A DNA stretch of 8,080 bases from Candidatus Heimdallarchaeota archaeon (GTDB lineage Archaea; Asgardarchaeota; Heimdallarchaeia; Heimdallarchaeales; Heimdallarchaeaceae). Below, in pieces: positions 941 to 8,020 of the stretch (position 1 is its first letter; the number at the start of each line of letters is the position of its first letter). The notes below the pieces were generated by a model, which worked only from the letters and a program-made list of their open reading frames with translations, did not search any database and was not told the origin of the DNA. The stretch covers positions 1 through 8,080 of the forward strand of contig JAGLTP010000102.1 in the NCBI GenBank assembly GCA_023135215.1. Reading direction: 5' to 3'. The position numbers were made by a program, and so were the translations under genes.

Positions 941-1252
941 ATGACTGAACTTTCCCCGCTTGAAGAGTTTGATAAGCTAGAACAAGTTGCATCTTGGATG
1001 CTATCCATTGTTTCAGCTTATGAAAAAGGAGCTTTAGATCGAAAAACAACTTCAGCTCTGGCAAGGAGAGCTCAAAAGAAGATAAGGAGACACATCCCTA
1101 ATGATTATGAGAAAGATCATAAGGAGATAATAGAAGATCTTTGTATTTCATTATCTACCATTGATAGAGCTGTGGGAAGTTTTGAAAGATTCTTTTTGAC
1201 TAGTCTCAAAGAGGAGATTGAAACCATAATTAAGACACTAGAAGATGAATGA
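941..1252 (+). CDS. Small all-helical protein of unknown function, paired with a small GTPase
   Basis: A 103-residue charged protein that I do not recognise. It is predicted to be entirely helical: about residues 6-28, 33-50, 56-76 and 78-102, with a turn at EKGALDR. It has no signal peptide, membrane segment or cysteine pair. Its 3' end overlaps the start of the GTPase gene by eight bases in an ATGAATGA arrangement, so the two are translated as a coupled pair. A functional tie to the GTPase (regulator, effector or scaffold) is the natural inference. The first hairpin (about residues 17-50, with the YEKGALD turn) has the loose spacing of the helical hairpins in ESCRT-I headpiece subunits, but this is too weak to name it. 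Start is ATG, supported by the TATA box at 907-914. Confidence 0.75.
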   Translation: MTELSPLEEFDKLEQVASWMLSIVSAYEKGALDRKTTSALARRAQKKIRRHIPNDYEKDHKEIIEDLCISLSTIDRAVGSFERFFLTSLKEEIETIIKTLEDE

Positions 1253-1798: not shown

Positions 1799-2467
1799 CT
1801 ATTTATCTTTCTTTTTTGCAGTTTTTTCTTGTTCTTCTGCTTCTTCTTTCACAATCTCATCTAATTCTTCATCATCAAAAAGCAAAATACTATCAAGAAC
1901 GTTTTCTAGTAATGGTCTTTCTGGTGGAGCTATTATTCCATCTTCAGAATCAGCTAGATCTACTTCTAAAGATGATAAATCAGCTCTCGCACCTGTAGTT
2001 CTAAAACTCATATTACCTACAGTACCCATATTTTGTATCAATGATTTCATTGATGTAATTTCATCGCGTAGATCCTTGATAGATGTTAAATCACCAATCT
2101 GTTCGCTGAATTTTTCCAGAATTTTATCTACTTCTTCAATTTTCGTTTGAGTTTTCTCGTCAAATTTCTGTCTATTTTCGAAGATTTTTGATAGTTTTCC
2201 ATCTGTAACTGGAGTATCCATCTGTGGTAGTTGACGCAGTACTCTAGTAGTTGTTGTTGAAAATTCCATCTTTGTTTTCCCGAGAATCCCAAATTTCTCC
2301 TTATGATGAGACTTTAAAGCTTCCAAAATAGCATTTTCTTGGCTACCATAGTGTATTGCTAAATCTTCCAATAAATCAAAGAAATCCATAGGAATAGCTA
2401 GTTCTATAATTCTAGCTATTCTTTGTTTTCTATTTTCATCAAACATTAAAGTAGCCTCAATATTCAT
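1799..2467 (-). CDS. Coiled-coil protein of unknown function with acidic/lysine tail
   Basis: A 222-residue cytosolic protein that I do not recognise. Residues 12-60 look like a small helical domain. Residues 91-147 carry heptad-like spacing with many Lys/Glu, consistent with a coiled coil. Residues 150-185 are low in structure (with PPERP), followed by an acidic helix and a lysine-rich end (AKKKDK). There are no cysteines, no catalytic motif and no membrane segment. It converges on the GTPase gene, with two bases between the stop codons. It diverges from the deacetylase gene across 124 bases that carry a TATA box for each direction. The composition suggests a scaffold or polymer-forming or adaptor protein, but no function can be assigned. 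Confidence 0.75.
   Translation of the reverse strand: MNIEATLMFDENRKQRIARIIELAIPMDFFDLLEDLAIHYGSQENAILEALKSHHKEKFGILGKTKMEFSTTTTRVLRQLPQMDTPVTDGKLSKIFENRQKFDEKTQTKIEEVDKILEKFSEQIGDLTSIKDLRDEITSMKSLIQNMGTVGNMSFRTTGARADLSSLEVDLADSEDGIIAPPERPLLENVLDSILLFDDEELDEIVKEEAEEQEKTAKKKDK
1812..1827 (+). terminator. T-tract terminator of the GTPase, inside the opposing gene
   Basis: Two six-T runs (1812-1817 and 1822-1827) follow the GTPase stop by 15-30 bases, with more T-rich sequence after. They are the complement of the lysine codons at the C-terminus of the minus-strand gene. Hairpin-less T-tracts are the known archaeal termination signal, so the opposing gene's Lys-rich tail may double as the terminator. 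Confidence 0.45.
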
Positions 2468-3433: not shown

Positions 3434-3823
3434 ATGACAGAAGACAAGGAACTAGAGAAAATTAGGGGGAAAAAAACCCAAGAGCTTCTAAGAATCGCAG
3501 AACAGAGAAAAAAGAGGATGGAAGAATTAAAAGAGGCAGAAGAAGCTCCAAAAAATATAGAAGAAAAAGATAAGTTAGCATTGATGCAGTTTTTTCTAGT
3601 ATCAGAAGCATATGAATATTGGATACAATTATACGACAGTTCGGATAAAAAACAAACAGCAGAAACGATTTTCAAGAATGTGCTTTATATGATAAAAATA
3701 GGTTTCATGGAAGGAAAGCAAGTTAATAGAATAGGTATTAAGAAGCTAGAAAGAGATATTGAAGGAATTCCACCATCTATTACAATTAAAAGGAAAGGAG
3801 AAAAGAAAAGAACTGTAAAATAA
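3434..3823 (+). CDS. Divergent PDCD5-like (TFAR19) protein
   Basis: A 129-residue protein with the outline of archaeal/eukaryotic PDCD5. It has an N-terminal charged helix beginning ELEKIRGKKTQELL (6-19), a Lys/Glu-rich stretch (22-46), and a helical core starting LALMQFFLVSEAYEYW (48-63), which corresponds to the family's LRQILTPEAR region. A second core helix follows (about 75-92), then IKKLERDIEG and the closing basic strand SITIKRKGEKK (115-125), like the family's KI(T/R)I.RR end. Canonical PDCD5 is usually recognisable by the TPEAR motif, which is degraded here, so this may be a paralogue rather than the standard copy. Family members are small helical-bundle proteins linked to nucleic acid and chaperonin binding in different systems; the archaeal role is unsettled. 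It sits between the deacetylase and ubiquitin genes. Confidence 0.55.
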   Translation: MTEDKELEKIRGKKTQELLRIAEQRKKRMEELKEAEEAPKNIEEKDKLALMQFFLVSEAYEYWIQLYDSSDKKQTAETIFKNVLYMIKIGFMEGKQVNRIGIKKLERDIEGIPPSITIKRKGEKKRTVK

Positions 3824-3893: not shown

Positions 3894-3938
3894 TGAATAA
3901 GTCATTAAAAAATTAGAAGCAATTTGGTGTTAGATAAA

Positions 3939-4175
3939 ATGCGAATTTCAGTAGTAACAGCTATCGGTGGAGGATCAATCGAACTAGATGTAGATCCACA
4001 TTCAACAGTGGCTCAATTAAAAAGAGAAGTAGCGAAGAAGAAAAAAATACCTGCTAATACAGTAATCATTGTTTTTCATGGAAAACAACTTGATGATAGT
4101 GAAATTTTGAAGCAGACAGGTATGATGGACGGAGACAAGTGCTATTTGATTGCAAGAACCAAAGGTGGTTTTTAA
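3939..4175 (+). CDS. Ubiquitin (Asgard-type, precursor ending Gly-Gly-Phe)
   Basis: A 78-residue protein that lines up with eukaryotic ubiquitin along its whole length. MRISVVTAIGGGSIELDVDP (1-20) matches the first beta hairpin. VAQLKREVAKKKKIP (24-38) matches the main helix and its IP end. FHGKQLDDSEIL (46-57) matches FAGKQLEDGRTL, so the position of Lys48 is kept as Lys49. ARTKGGF (72-78) matches the RLRGG tail plus one residue. Processing to expose Gly77 would be needed before E1 can adenylate it. Hydrophobic-patch positions are conservatively changed (Ile44 equivalent is Val45; His68 equivalent is Tyr69). ATG 3939 gives exactly the ubiquitin N-terminus; a TTG at 3924 would add five residues and is less likely. 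It has its own promoter and terminator and precedes the E1 gene. Confidence 0.93.
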   Translation: MRISVVTAIGGGSIELDVDPHSTVAQLKREVAKKKKIPANTVIIVFHGKQLDDSEILKQTGMMDGDKCYLIARTKGGF

Positions 4176-4328: not shown

Positions 4329-5333
4329 ATGCCAAAAGATAACAGATATTCTCGTCAATCACTTATTCCAGGATGGGATCAAACAACATTAGATAGTAGT
4401 ACTGTTATTCTTGTTGGAGTGGGTGCGATAGGTAGTTATGTTGCCACTATTTTAGCATCTTCAGGCATTGGAAAGCTTGTCATTATTGAATTTGATACTA
4501 TTGAATTATCAAACTTAAATAGACAATTACTCTTTCGTGATGAGGATCTAGGGAAACCTAAAGCGGAAGTAGCTTCTAAGAGACTAAAGGAGATTAACCC
4601 AGAGATAGAAATAGAGTTTCATCACAAAAAAATGGAAGAAGTCAATGCTTCGGTATATGAACGAGCAAATGTTATTATCGGTTGCCTTGATACATTCATT
4701 GGCAGAAGATGGATAAGTTCTATGGCCTTAAGAGTAAAAAAGCCTCTTATTTTAGGAGGAATGTTCGCATTTTTAGGTGACGTACAAGTAATTATTCCAT
4801 ATAAAACTGCATGTTTTGAATGCCAGCCCTTGGTACCCGATGAAGAACTAGCACAAGCATGTACTCCCTATGGTGAAGAAAGGAAAAAAGAAAGAGAAGA
4901 AGAAGAGGAAGAAGCTAAACTACCTGCTGTAGCAACATTATCAAGTATCATAGGGGGGATGATGGCTCAAGAATCTCTAAAACTCATCCTTGAATTAGGA
5001 GCACCTCTGGAGAACTATATGTTCTACGATGGTCTCAATAATGCAACTACTATCATTCCATTAGCAAGAACAGAAGATTGCCCAGCTTGTGGAGAATTAT
5101 ACAAGTTAGAACAGATTAAATTTATTGCTCATCCTACTGAAACAATTAAAGACTTAATGCTTAGATTAGCATTAACTTACGGTTTGGAGAAACCTGATTT
5201 GATGGTTGAGGGAAAACTATTAGATAGCGAGAGCGTGGTAGAAAATCAACTAAAGGAAAAATCTATTGTTTATATTTTAGATAAAAATCTGGCAAAACCA
5301 ATTAAGATTGTTATAAAAATTGAAAAACTTTAG
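4329..5333 (+). CDS. Ubiquitin-activating E1-like enzyme with C-terminal ubiquitin-fold domain
   Basis: A 334-residue E1/ThiF/MoeB-family protein. The adenylation domain shows GVGAIG (30-35) for ATP binding, Asp56 in EFDTIELSNLNRQLLF (54-69, with Arg65), Lys78 in GKPKAEVA and Asp121 in CLD. Four zinc ligands sit at Cys162/Cys165 (CFEC) and Cys251/Cys254 (CPAC). Cys178 in the QACTP context is the likely thioester cysteine. A highly charged loop (about 182-197) follows it. After the zinc knuckle, residues 257-334 look like a beta-grasp ubiquitin-fold domain (TIKDLMLRL, YGLEKPDLMVEGKLL), the part that recruits the E2 in UBA3-type E1s. MoeB and ThiF lack this domain. The enzyme would adenylate the neighbouring ubiquitin and pass it to an E2 not seen here. 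It is much shorter than eukaryotic UBA1 and probably acts as a homodimer. Confidence 0.92.
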   Translation: MPKDNRYSRQSLIPGWDQTTLDSSTVILVGVGAIGSYVATILASSGIGKLVIIEFDTIELSNLNRQLLFRDEDLGKPKAEVASKRLKEINPEIEIEFHHKKMEEVNASVYERANVIIGCLDTFIGRRWISSMALRVKKPLILGGMFAFLGDVQVIIPYKTACFECQPLVPDEELAQACTPYGEERKKEREEEEEEAKLPAVATLSSIIGGMMAQESLKLILELGAPLENYMFYDGLNNATTIIPLARTEDCPACGELYKLEQIKFIAHPTETIKDLMLRLALTYGLEKPDLMVEGKLLDSESVVENQLKEKSIVYILDKNLAKPIKIVIKIEKL

Positions 5334-5414: not shown

Positions 5415-6824
5415 GTGAGACAAATATCCACAGATGATTTCCTCCTCGCAAATGAAGCGCAGTTAATTTATGAAAAAGCTTCCGGATTTGAACCAGTTAG
5501 AGGCAATCTTAAACATTGGAAAGGCTTTGTTGGAATAATTGAAGGAACAGAAATACCCATTTTTGCCAATATTTGGATTCAAGATGGTTTTCCTGACATT
5601 CCTCCTTTTGTAGATATTACTCCAAAAGTTAATCATCCTAATGTTGAAGACGACGGAACTTTAAATTTACGAATTCTATCTAATTGGAAAAATAACTACA
5701 ACATCTATGAAGTGATGAATGATATTATGGATCTTTTCACTAAAGTTCCTGCAAGAACCTACAAAACAAAGGTGAAAAGAGCAAAGAAAGAAGAACGTAT
5801 TTCTGGGCTTCCAGTATATGCAATACCAACAAGACAGCTTCCTCAAACTCAAGCTAAAGCTCCAAAGGTTGATACAAAAATCGAAGAAGAAAAGAGATCA
5901 ACAGAAGAATCGATTGTCAATTATCAGAGACAGATTGAAACTATAAGCAGGAGCATAGAGAAAGAAAGAGAATCACTTTTGAAAGAAGGTGGAGTTAAAA
6001 TTGAAACTAAAGAGGTTTCCATATCAAGAGAAGATGACCTAAAAGCTGATGTTAGTGCTGTAGTGGATACTCTTGAGACCTTGCATGAAAAATTTGAAGA
6101 TGGAGACATGACAAATGTAGACTTTCTCAAGCTTTACAGAAGATACTCTAAAAAAGGTTATAAGGCAGAGAAACAGCTTAACAAAATCAGAGTAGACTCA
6201 AGTGGTAGTATGACAAAGGAAGAAGAAAAAATACTTGAATTAGAAGCAGATTTGTTTGCTTCAATTGTAACGTTAGATAATTTAATCAAAGGTTTCGAAG
6301 ATAACGAAATAGAGCAAATTGCTTATAGAAAACAGCTTAGGTCACTATTACGGGGTATATTCAAAGCTCGAATACAGTTAGAAAAAATCGGATTCAATCT
6401 AGAAGAATTTGTAAAAAGAGAAAAAATGGAAGAAAGATATTCCAAAGGTATAAGGCAATTACGTGTTGCAGAAGGTGTTGAAACAGCTGATGCAATATCC
6501 ATACCATTTGACACTCTAAAGAAGATGCCTTCTAAAACTGCAGATTATGTTTCTTCAGCGATTGAATTGATTGATCTTACAAGACTTCGTTCAGTAGCTC
6601 GAGCTGATTTGTTATTAGCAGATATTGATGAAATGCTTCATATTCTGAAAACATTTCCATCTATACCTGAAGACCATTGGGTTATAAGTGACCTAAATAA
6701 TTGGCGAGATATTCTGTCAAAATACAAACCTCAAGATGTGATAAAAGAAGAAGATTGCGAGAAACTAGAATTTCAAGCAGCAAGATGGCTGAATGATTTC
6801 AGAAGACTTTTGAAAGAATTGTAA
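5415..6824 (+). CDS. Single-chain ESCRT-I protein: UEV, steadiness box and Vps28 domains
   Basis: A 469-residue protein. Residues 1-112 form an E2-like (UEV) domain: FPDIPPFVDI, HPN at 74-76, then GTLNL, where the E2 catalytic cysteine is Asn84, followed by the conserved Trp91. So it should bind but not transfer ubiquitin, as in Tsg101/Vps23. A basic, proline-containing linker (113-155) and a coiled coil (156-190) follow. Residues 204-260 resemble the Tsg101 steadiness box (DTL...G...FLK..R..S.K...L.K.R). Residues 276-348 resemble the Vps28 N-terminal hairpin (LFASIVTLDNLIKGFED, then LEEFVKRE). Residues 385-469 resemble the Vps28 C-terminal four-helix domain (IPED...V..L..W...L, then LEFQAARWLNDFRRLL), the ESCRT-II/III contact in eukaryotes. 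Start is GTG: the only upstream ATG (5388) meets a stop three codons later. It lies between E1 and ESCRT-II genes. UEV and Vps28 C-terminal calls are firm; the two headpiece hairpins are from pattern alone. Confidence 0.88.
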   Translation: MRQISTDDFLLANEAQLIYEKASGFEPVRGNLKHWKGFVGIIEGTEIPIFANIWIQDGFPDIPPFVDITPKVNHPNVEDDGTLNLRILSNWKNNYNIYEVMNDIMDLFTKVPARTYKTKVKRAKKEERISGLPVYAIPTRQLPQTQAKAPKVDTKIEEEKRSTEESIVNYQRQIETISRSIEKERESLLKEGGVKIETKEVSISREDDLKADVSAVVDTLETLHEKFEDGDMTNVDFLKLYRRYSKKGYKAEKQLNKIRVDSSGSMTKEEEKILELEADLFASIVTLDNLIKGFEDNEIEQIAYRKQLRSLLRGIFKARIQLEKIGFNLEEFVKREKMEERYSKGIRQLRVAEGVETADAISIPFDTLKKMPSKTADYVSSAIELIDLTRLRSVARADLLLADIDEMLHILKTFPSIPEDHWVISDLNNWRDILSKYKPQDVIKEEDCEKLEFQAARWLNDFRRLLKEL

Positions 6825-6894: not shown

Positions 6895-7209
6895 GTGAAT
6901 TTCTTGGATAGGAGAAATGCTCTCAATACGATGTTCATCAATATAAGAAAGGATTTATTTGAACTTGTAAATATGATTGAGATAAAAATCGATATAGGAT
7001 ATATCCTCGAAGAGATAGAGGAATTATCATATGAAGTTCAAAAAATGAGTGAAATCGGTTCTAATATGGGAGTAGAGATGAAAGATATTTATAATTCATT
7101 GTACAATAAATATAAAAACAAACTAGCTTCGTTTTTAACCCCCAGAGAAGCAAATCATCTTGTTAGTAAAATAATGAGTTGGATACAAACATTACCGGGT
7201 TTGATTTAA
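6895..7209 (+). CDS. Small helical protein between ESCRT-I and ESCRT-II genes, function unknown
   Basis: A 104-residue protein that I do not recognise. It appears all-helical: about 7-30, 33-57, 61-80 and 83-99. There are no cysteines, no membrane segment and no catalytic motif. Residues 45-80 (YEVQKMSEIGSNMG, then MKDIYNSLYNKYKNKL) have the spacing of the helical hairpins in ESCRT-I headpiece subunits and echo the FLKLYRRYSKKGYK stretch of the neighbouring ESCRT-I protein. This is suggestive only. It lies 70 bases after the ESCRT-I gene with no clear promoter of its own, so it may be cotranscribed with it. Start is uncertain: GTG 6895 (GAGGT 12 bases before) or TTG 6904 (AGGTGA at 6893-6898, better spaced); ATG 6931 would shorten it by 12 residues. 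A missing third ESCRT-I subunit (Vps37-like) or an Asgard-specific ESCRT partner are the leading ideas. Confidence 0.75.
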   Translation: MNFLDRRNALNTMFINIRKDLFELVNMIEIKIDIGYILEEIEELSYEVQKMSEIGSNMGVEMKDIYNSLYNKYKNKLASFLTPREANHLVSKIMSWIQTLPGLI

Positions 7210-7282: not shown

Positions 7283-8020
7283 TTGGAGATTGAATTGGGA
7301 TTACGAGAAATAGAGAAAAAAATCAAGGTAAAATCAGCATTCCAAGTTAAAGATGCAGAATTGATGATTAAAGAATTAGAACAAATGATAGGGAATATTG
7401 GAGAAATTAAGAAACAATTGAAAAAATTCGAGAAAAAATTTGGTGGTAAGATCACTGAAAACAAAGAATATTATGAAAAACTTGCTGATTTAAGAAAAGA
7501 ACTTGGTTTACCCATGGAAATTGGGCGTTTTGATTGGCAGGAAACTCCCACTCTAAAAGATAAGCTTACAGGAAGAGGTTTTTATGACATTTTAGCAAAT
7601 GAGATTATAGAGCTAGGTCAAAAACTTACGCCTGAAAACGGGGGGATAATGTCATTAGGTGAGTTATTCACTCAGTTAAACAAAACTCGTCCAGGTAAGA
7701 TGGTTTCTATTGATGATATGTATCGATCACTGGAGAAACTAATAAATGCTCAACTTATTCCTCCGTACAAGACTCTTGAATCAGGAACTAAGATAGTAGA
7801 ATTTACCACCGTGGAATTCAGTCAAGACCATGATATTATCCTAAATTACGCTTCACGTGAAGGATATGTTACAAAAGAAGATTTGTTAATGCGTACTGAC
7901 TGGAACGAAGAACGAATTGATAGATGCTTAACATTCTTTGAAGAACATGGGATTGCACGGGTGGATAGAAGCTATTCTGGTGGAACAAAATACTGGTTCC
8001 CAGGTCTTATGAGTCTATAA
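7283..8020 (+). CDS. ESCRT-II subunit Vps22/EAP30 (SNF8) homologue
   Basis: A 245-residue protein, similar in length to human SNF8 and yeast Vps22 (roughly 230-260 aa). The order of parts is the same. There is an N-terminal helical/coiled segment (1-75, with GLREIEKK like the family's glycine-containing KKK start). A first winged helix follows (about 98-175), with FYDILANEIIELG and GGIMSLGEL matching the family's FYYELGVQIIE and GGLITLEEL. The second winged helix (about 180-245) has DHDIILNYASREGYVT and the closing YWFPGL. In eukaryotes two Vps25 copies and one Vps36 join Vps22, linking ESCRT-I to ESCRT-III at membranes. No Vps25 gene is present here. Start is non-ATG: TTG 7283 directly follows an in-frame TAG. 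TTG 7295, with GGAG at 7285-7288 six bases before it, is an equally good choice and removes four residues. Confidence 0.93.
   Translation: MEIELGLREIEKKIKVKSAFQVKDAELMIKELEQMIGNIGEIKKQLKKFEKKFGGKITENKEYYEKLADLRKELGLPMEIGRFDWQETPTLKDKLTGRGFYDILANEIIELGQKLTPENGGIMSLGELFTQLNKTRPGKMVSIDDMYRSLEKLINAQLIPPYKTLESGTKIVEFTTVEFSQDHDIILNYASREGYVTKEDLLMRTDWNEERIDRCLTFFEEHGIARVDRSYSGGTKYWFPGLMSL

Follow-up and report, generated by a model that had tools for sequence, protein, structure and literature searches.

Domain matches and phylogeny point to a Heimdallarchaeaceae ESCRT-I subunit that joins Vps23 and Vps28 in one chain through a single fusion of neighbouring genes

By its profile matches and structural model, the product of positions 5415-6824 of the window (the whole stretch of 8,080 nucleotides of Candidatus Heimdallarchaeota contig JAGLTP010000102.1 analysed here) is an ESCRT-I subunit of a Heimdallarchaeaceae type, with a Vps23-type protein and a full-length Vps28 in one chain. 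We consider it highly probable, taking the explanation as a whole, that this fused subunit serves in ubiquitin binding, in the ESCRT-I head and in contact with Vps22, that it arose by a one-time fusion of adjoining genes and that Met266 is a remnant of that event. The gene is a single open frame of 469 codons with no internal stops, and its parts are the following.

5415..6824, forward strand: ESCRT-I fusion gene comprising UEV, stalk, steadiness box and complete Vps28 (469 aa, GTG start)
5415..5744, forward strand: UEV domain, residues 1-110 (Pfam and structure matches; without Cys in residues 72-95)
5874..5987, forward strand: predicted stalk helix, residues 154-191 (a single helix in the AlphaFold2 model)
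6027..6194, forward strand: first hairpin, putative Vps23 steadiness box (Vps23_core), residues 205-260 (Pfam and model)
6210..6212, forward strand: ATG codon of Met266, invariant and at the place of split vps28 starts; candidate fossil (or retained) vps28 start codon
6216..6473, forward strand: second hairpin and following helices, Vps28 N-terminal domain, residues 268-353 (Pfam, model and profile A3)
6525..6821, forward strand: Vps28 C-terminal four-helix domain, residues 371-469 (Pfam VPS28 and model)

From the N-terminus the protein carries a UEV domain, a predicted stalk helix, a putative steadiness-box hairpin, a Vps28 N-terminal hairpin and a Vps28 C-terminal four-helix domain. The Pfam scan covered 10 of the 17 listed ORFs of the window. 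We aligned the protein with 21 of its 47 database matches (22 rows in total, 52 to 94% identity); at E <= 0.01, VPS28 and UQ_con each match all 22 rows, and UEV and Vps23_core 21 rows each. The AlphaFold2 model built on this alignment has a mean pLDDT of 76 and a pTM of 0.47. A single-sequence search of the whole protein against solved structures returned E2 enzymes and two interferon entries in the best 60 of 209 rows. The initial annotation had proposed Vps23 (UEV plus steadiness box) and a complete Vps28 in one chain, and the Pfam, model and profile matches bear this out.

The Vps28 half contains both the N-terminal hairpin and the C-terminal four-helix domain. Pfam VPS28 matches residues 278-466 with 40.4 bits (cut-off 24.5), spanning positions 2-188 of the 188 in the profile. 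A Vps28 profile of 16 rows (A3) matches the solved Vps28 N-terminal chains 2caz, 2f66, 2f6m, 2p22 and 6vme with E-values from 1.6e-4 to 2e-3. In the model, helices 268-295 and 301-323 form the second hairpin and are followed by short helices up to residue 353; the C-terminal helices lie at 373-389, 397-413, 422-435 and 445-468. The assignments of the second hairpin to the Vps28 N-terminal hairpin and of the C-terminal region to a Vps28-like domain are thereby upheld, and no match of the latter to an unrelated family occurred.

The first hairpin is formed by helices 205-228 and 234-260 in the model. Pfam Vps23_core matches residues 208-249 with 24.6 bits (E 2.5e-5), slightly below its cut-off of 26.8, and PF09454 is precomputed for 28 of the 47 homologues. 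A stalk-plus-box profile of 13 rows reaches yeast Vps23 (2p22_A) among solved structures at E 0.12, in row 14 of 47; its best match is an unrelated chain (8whn_A, E 5e-4), and other unrelated chains also precede yeast Vps23. The first and second hairpins are related to one another in a profile comparison (probability 93%, E 3e-7). The identification of this hairpin as a Tsg101-type steadiness box, as initially claimed, is thus supported by the Vps23_core E-value at a score below the Pfam cut-off, and by sequence evidence it is the weakest part of the domain reading. Of the two hairpins originally placed at about 204-260 and 276-348, the first agrees with the model, and the second is present but had been started about eight residues too late. 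Because the model separates the two hairpins, residues 204-348 do not form one continuous coiled coil in it.

A scan of species genomes yielded 26 loci: 19 with whole fused genes, one with a fused gene cut by the contig end (L017) and six with split pairs. Of 227 genomes of the phylum searched for Vps28, 162 gave a match, and 142 of these scored above the family cut-off; among the matches listed, at least 19 Vps28 frames measure 467-490 codons and most others about 205-240. Many frames of about 790-850 codons among these listed matches (G089, G111 and G108, for example) carry the Vps28 C-terminal domain only, and are perhaps the multidomain proteins described in the text of Makarova et al. (2024, PMC10936438). 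We added 40 further regions and dropped duplicate loci (L027-L035, L050, L051, L055). The resulting 94 Vps28 rows comprise 93 loci and the window, each having both a hairpin match and a C-terminal match; this locus set and the tree do not extend to about 69 of the 162 matched genomes, for the most part those with weaker matches.

The fused form accounts for 21 of the 94 loci (the window and L017 included) and the split form for 73. In 55 of the 73 the split vps28 lies directly behind a vps23-type frame, which has a UEV hit in 53 cases and is cut at the contig end in the other two (L045 and L072). Of the 18 split loci without an adjacent vps23-type frame, 17 form the most distant branch of the tree, which we take to be Loki-type, and in the remaining one (L065) the sequence breaks off just upstream; in our sample, vps23-vps28 adjacency is the rule for all but the branch of 17. 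In seven loci (L069, L073, L077 and L079-L082) the vps23-type gene is closely preceded on its own strand by a Rab-like stop-to-stop frame of about 405-443 codons.

On the tree, which was built without eukaryotic rows and has several long end branches, the 21 fused rows form one clade with support of 100/100, requiring one change, and do so in 100% of 200 bootstrap trees, although the bootstrap is rough and not fully settled. The junction between the two halves carries a further mark. All 48 proteins (44 of them distinct) have Met266, which is the one Met conserved throughout, while its surroundings (positions 259-273) vary. Met266 stands 7-8 residues ahead of the hairpin match in all 20 fused loci listed (8 in the window). 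The fused rows belong to a clade of 56 (support 99/99), and in 34 of its 35 split rows a distance of 5-13 residues separates the hairpin match from the closest Met upstream of it, L022 being the sole exception; elsewhere in the tree the spacing varies more. Among the 55 adjacent pairs, 10 are in phase with exactly one in-frame stop between the stop-to-stop frames, 25 overlap out of phase and 20 lie farther apart. In L072 the vps23 stop is followed immediately by the vps28 ATG, with GGAGG just upstream.

The Met266 pattern is, as far as sequences can tell, the trace expected if the two genes fused when a stop codon was lost or the frame shifted, and Met266 would then be a remnant of the vps28 start codon. 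Because the fused rows form one clade, split genes are adjacent and Met266 sits at the split start site, our data indicate that the single chain is not ancestral but was derived once, by fusion of adjoining genes, and they argue against eukaryotic ESCRT-I being a split version of the Asgard chain, the tree on which this rests having no eukaryotic rows. The initial annotation had left two options open. Adjacency, the single fused clade and the position of Met266 favour its fusion of once-separate genes, whereas the placement of the fused clade among split rows, in a tree of Asgard sequences, speaks against its alternative of a eukaryotic complex derived by splitting this chain. Our searches of the open-licence PMC literature turned up no mention of the direction of the fusion or of an internal start.

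Met266 could also still be in use, one mRNA yielding two products, the full UEV-Vps23-Vps28 chain and a free Vps28 started internally. Met266 is the sole invariant Met (48/48) within a variable linker, and the other common Met columns are replaced, mostly by Leu, Ile or Val. Its mean duplex energy with an assumed archaeal anti-Shine-Dalgarno sequence is -4.3 across 20 loci; the mean for 131 other in-frame Mets is -2.2. In L016, GGAGG precedes Met266 at good spacing and gives -9.3, a value reached by 0.5% of 8884 codon positions and resembling that of split genes, of which 44 of 72 score -5 or better at whichever upstream ATG scores best. No Met is retained at this place in L022, L036, L041 and L044, split genes whose long N-terminal extensions make the position internal (their Vps28 frames have 304-322 codons, with about 100-125 residues ahead of the hairpin).

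The window itself argues the other way. Its Met266 site scores a weak -3.6, a value that 23% of codon positions reach, and another in-frame Met scores -5.9; in just 10 of the 20 loci does Met266 lack a better in-frame rival. When synonymous codons are resampled, the window has p 0.64 and 4 of 14 distinct sequences, all close relatives, have p < 0.03; linker Gly can by itself produce a Shine-Dalgarno-like signal. The 48 rows are, moreover, related and hence not 48 independent cases. We therefore regard a second product as unlikely, though it is the strongest competitor to a start codon that is only a remnant. If such a product were made, the fusion would not have fixed the subunit ratio at 1:1, and internal initiation would be most pronounced where GGAGG still precedes the internal ATG, as in the lineage of L016. 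The conserved internal Met offers a cheap test of whether the fused gene still supplies a free subunit.

The same junction bears on the possibility that the single chain is ancestral and that other Asgards and eukaryotes carry a split form. We looked for evidence in support of this and found none. The fused rows form their single clade (100/100, one change) amid split rows, and all 17 rows of the most distant branch are split. An invariant Met at the place where the split gene starts, together with the GGAGG of L016 that resembles the sequence ahead of split starts, is expected for a fusion and less so for the origin of a split. On the evidence of the Asgard tree and the junction we reject an ancestral single chain as very improbable, which leaves the derived fusion of adjacent genes as our reading.

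At the N-terminus, the E2-like domain claimed at the outset is confirmed, since both UQ_con (residues 51-110, 41.2 bits, cut-off 27) and UEV (residues 45-110, 27.7 bits, cut-off 27) exceed their cut-offs. That the general E2 family outscores UEV could suggest that the domain is an active E2 enzyme and the protein a ubiquitin ligase component rather than ESCRT-I; some sources indeed label relatives as ubiquitin-conjugating enzyme or ubiquitin-protein ligase, and the 50 Foldseek rows listed, which correspond to the UEV/E2 part, are mostly E2s and include no TSG101 or Vps23 UEV chain. The catalytic Cys of an E2 falls within residues 72-95, consistent with the E2 alignments of the solved-structure search. 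However, Cys is found in this stretch in none of the 46 rows covering it, residue 84 being Ser in 42, Asn in two, Ala in one and Lys in one, so the UEV domain is not an active E2. With a complete Vps28 following in the same chain, an active E2 was rejected and has hardly any chance of being correct. An assembly or frameshift artefact joining two genes is the least credible explanation of all, because the same architecture recurs in many separate assemblies, which points to neither chance nor assembly error: a fused frame of 467-490 codons occurs in at least 19 of the 227 genomes of the phylum, plus one more cut by a contig end, and is present in the complete genome of Heimdallarchaeum endolithica (L016).

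Around the ESCRT-I gene the window carries the following parts.

3924..4175, forward strand: ubiquitin-like protein ending GGF (Pfam)
4329..5333, forward strand: E1-like ThiF-family protein, candidate ubiquitin-activating enzyme of the same cluster (Pfam)
6904..7209, forward strand: small helical protein, possible stand-alone Vps28-C paralogue (about 101 aa from TTG; linked to Vps28-C through relatives)
7283..8020, forward strand: ESCRT-II Vps22-like protein (Pfam EAP30, 78 bits)

The ubiquitin-like protein ends in Gly-Gly-Phe, so that conjugation would first require the loss of one residue; its gene more probably starts at ATG 3939 than at the listed TTG. Upstream of it, a 129-aa ORF (3434-3823, forward strand) has 16 matches in related loci, those in L042, L048 and L056 being on the opposite strand. 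A 103-aa ORF (941-1252, forward strand) that adjoins a Rab/Ras-like GTPase gene (1245-1796) has matches in eight related loci, and a 222-aa ORF (1799-2467, reverse strand) in nine. Neither the 129-aa nor the 222-aa product belongs to a Pfam family above cut-off.

The small gene at 6904-7209 is conserved between the ESCRT-I and Vps22 genes, and its product is predicted to form four helices. Translation more probably begins at TTG 6904, which follows GGTGA, than at the listed GTG at 6895; the protein P0049 has 101 aa. Pfam gave no match for this product or for the small proteins of L042, L048 and L056, and when the profile of the window's small-protein family was compared directly with Vps28-C, the probability was 0.3%. 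Small proteins from split genomes do match the Vps28-C model of the fused family: L056 at E 7e-7, L048 and L070 at 1e-4 and, more weakly, L042 and L067 at about 5e-4 and L062 and L022 at 0.01. In a shuffle control with five of the small-protein sequences, 0 of 1000 matched this model. The small-protein model in turn matches L042, L048 and L056 at 1e-12 to 1e-16. Because iterated HMMs mix small proteins with Vps28-C, the homology is cited here from models of the fused family alone. Taken together, these sequence matches suggest that 6904-7209 may encode a stand-alone Vps28 C-terminal domain. Asgard genes that encode this domain separately have been noted (Makarova et al., 2024, PMC10936438), and the product fits in having four predicted helices and adjoining vps28; the article text does not name this gene, and the link made here passes through relatives.

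As the initial annotation had correctly stated, Asgard proteins that combine UEV- and Vps28-like parts were already in print: the text of Hatano et al. (2022, PMC9192718) describes HeimAB125_14070 as Vps28 fused to a UEV-Vps23-like structure. The UEV-Vps23-Vps28 fusion is thus already known, and the window's protein is an orthologue, HeimAB125_14070 (P0020) being 71% identical to it over 100% of its length. According to the same text, HeimAB125_14070 was purified, binds ubiquitin in crosslinking experiments in a manner dependent on the ubiquitin hydrophobic patch, and dimerises, and Heimdall ESCRT-I contacts Vps22 in a two-hybrid assay (PMC9192718).

By analogy, the window's protein would behave like HeimAB125_14070. 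Its UEV would bind ubiquitin on cargo, as shown for the orthologue, while the stalk and two hairpins would hold a head that is probably a dimer; with a pTM of 0.47, the model leaves the packing of the hairpins tentative. ESCRT-II of the Vps22 type, whose gene lies two genes downstream, would probably be recruited by the Vps28 C-terminal domain. The hand-over from ESCRT-II to ESCRT-III is established for the eukaryotic pathway, and the window's ESCRT-II would likewise pass on to ESCRT-III. We propose that the fusion occurred once, in the ancestor of the fused clade, from two genes that are adjacent in many other Asgard genomes. Asgard ESCRT-I bears on the origin of eukaryotic membrane sorting; if the fused gene stems from one derived joining of neighbouring genes, it does not represent the ancestor of the eukaryotic complex, a role that suits the tandem two-gene form better. 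The direction of evolution is what this analysis adds to the published fusion.

Eukaryotic ESCRT-I consists of Vps23/TSG101, Vps28, Vps37 and Mvb12. It shares with the window's protein the UEV, the Vps28 hairpin, the Vps28 C-terminal domain and, probably, the stalk and the steadiness-box hairpin, and differs in having two subunits where the fusion has one chain. No clear Vps37 was found in Asgards according to the text of PMC9192718. The closest system is HeimAB125_14070 of Heimdallarchaeota AB_125, which has the same domain order and length (469 aa) and differs by sequence divergence only. An AB_125 contig in our set (L018), and hence presumably the HeimAB125_14070 locus, resembles the window in that the small gene and the Vps22 gene follow downstream. 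The adjacent vps23 and vps28 of other Asgards (for example L019 of Borrarchaeum, L023 of Sifarchaeum, L020, L021 and L072) keep the same order with the breakpoint between the hairpins, but occupy two reading frames where the window has one. The text of Eme et al. (2023, PMC10307638) reports a fusion of Vps5-BAR to Vps28 in Thorarchaeia, which likewise includes Vps28 but with another partner and in another lineage.
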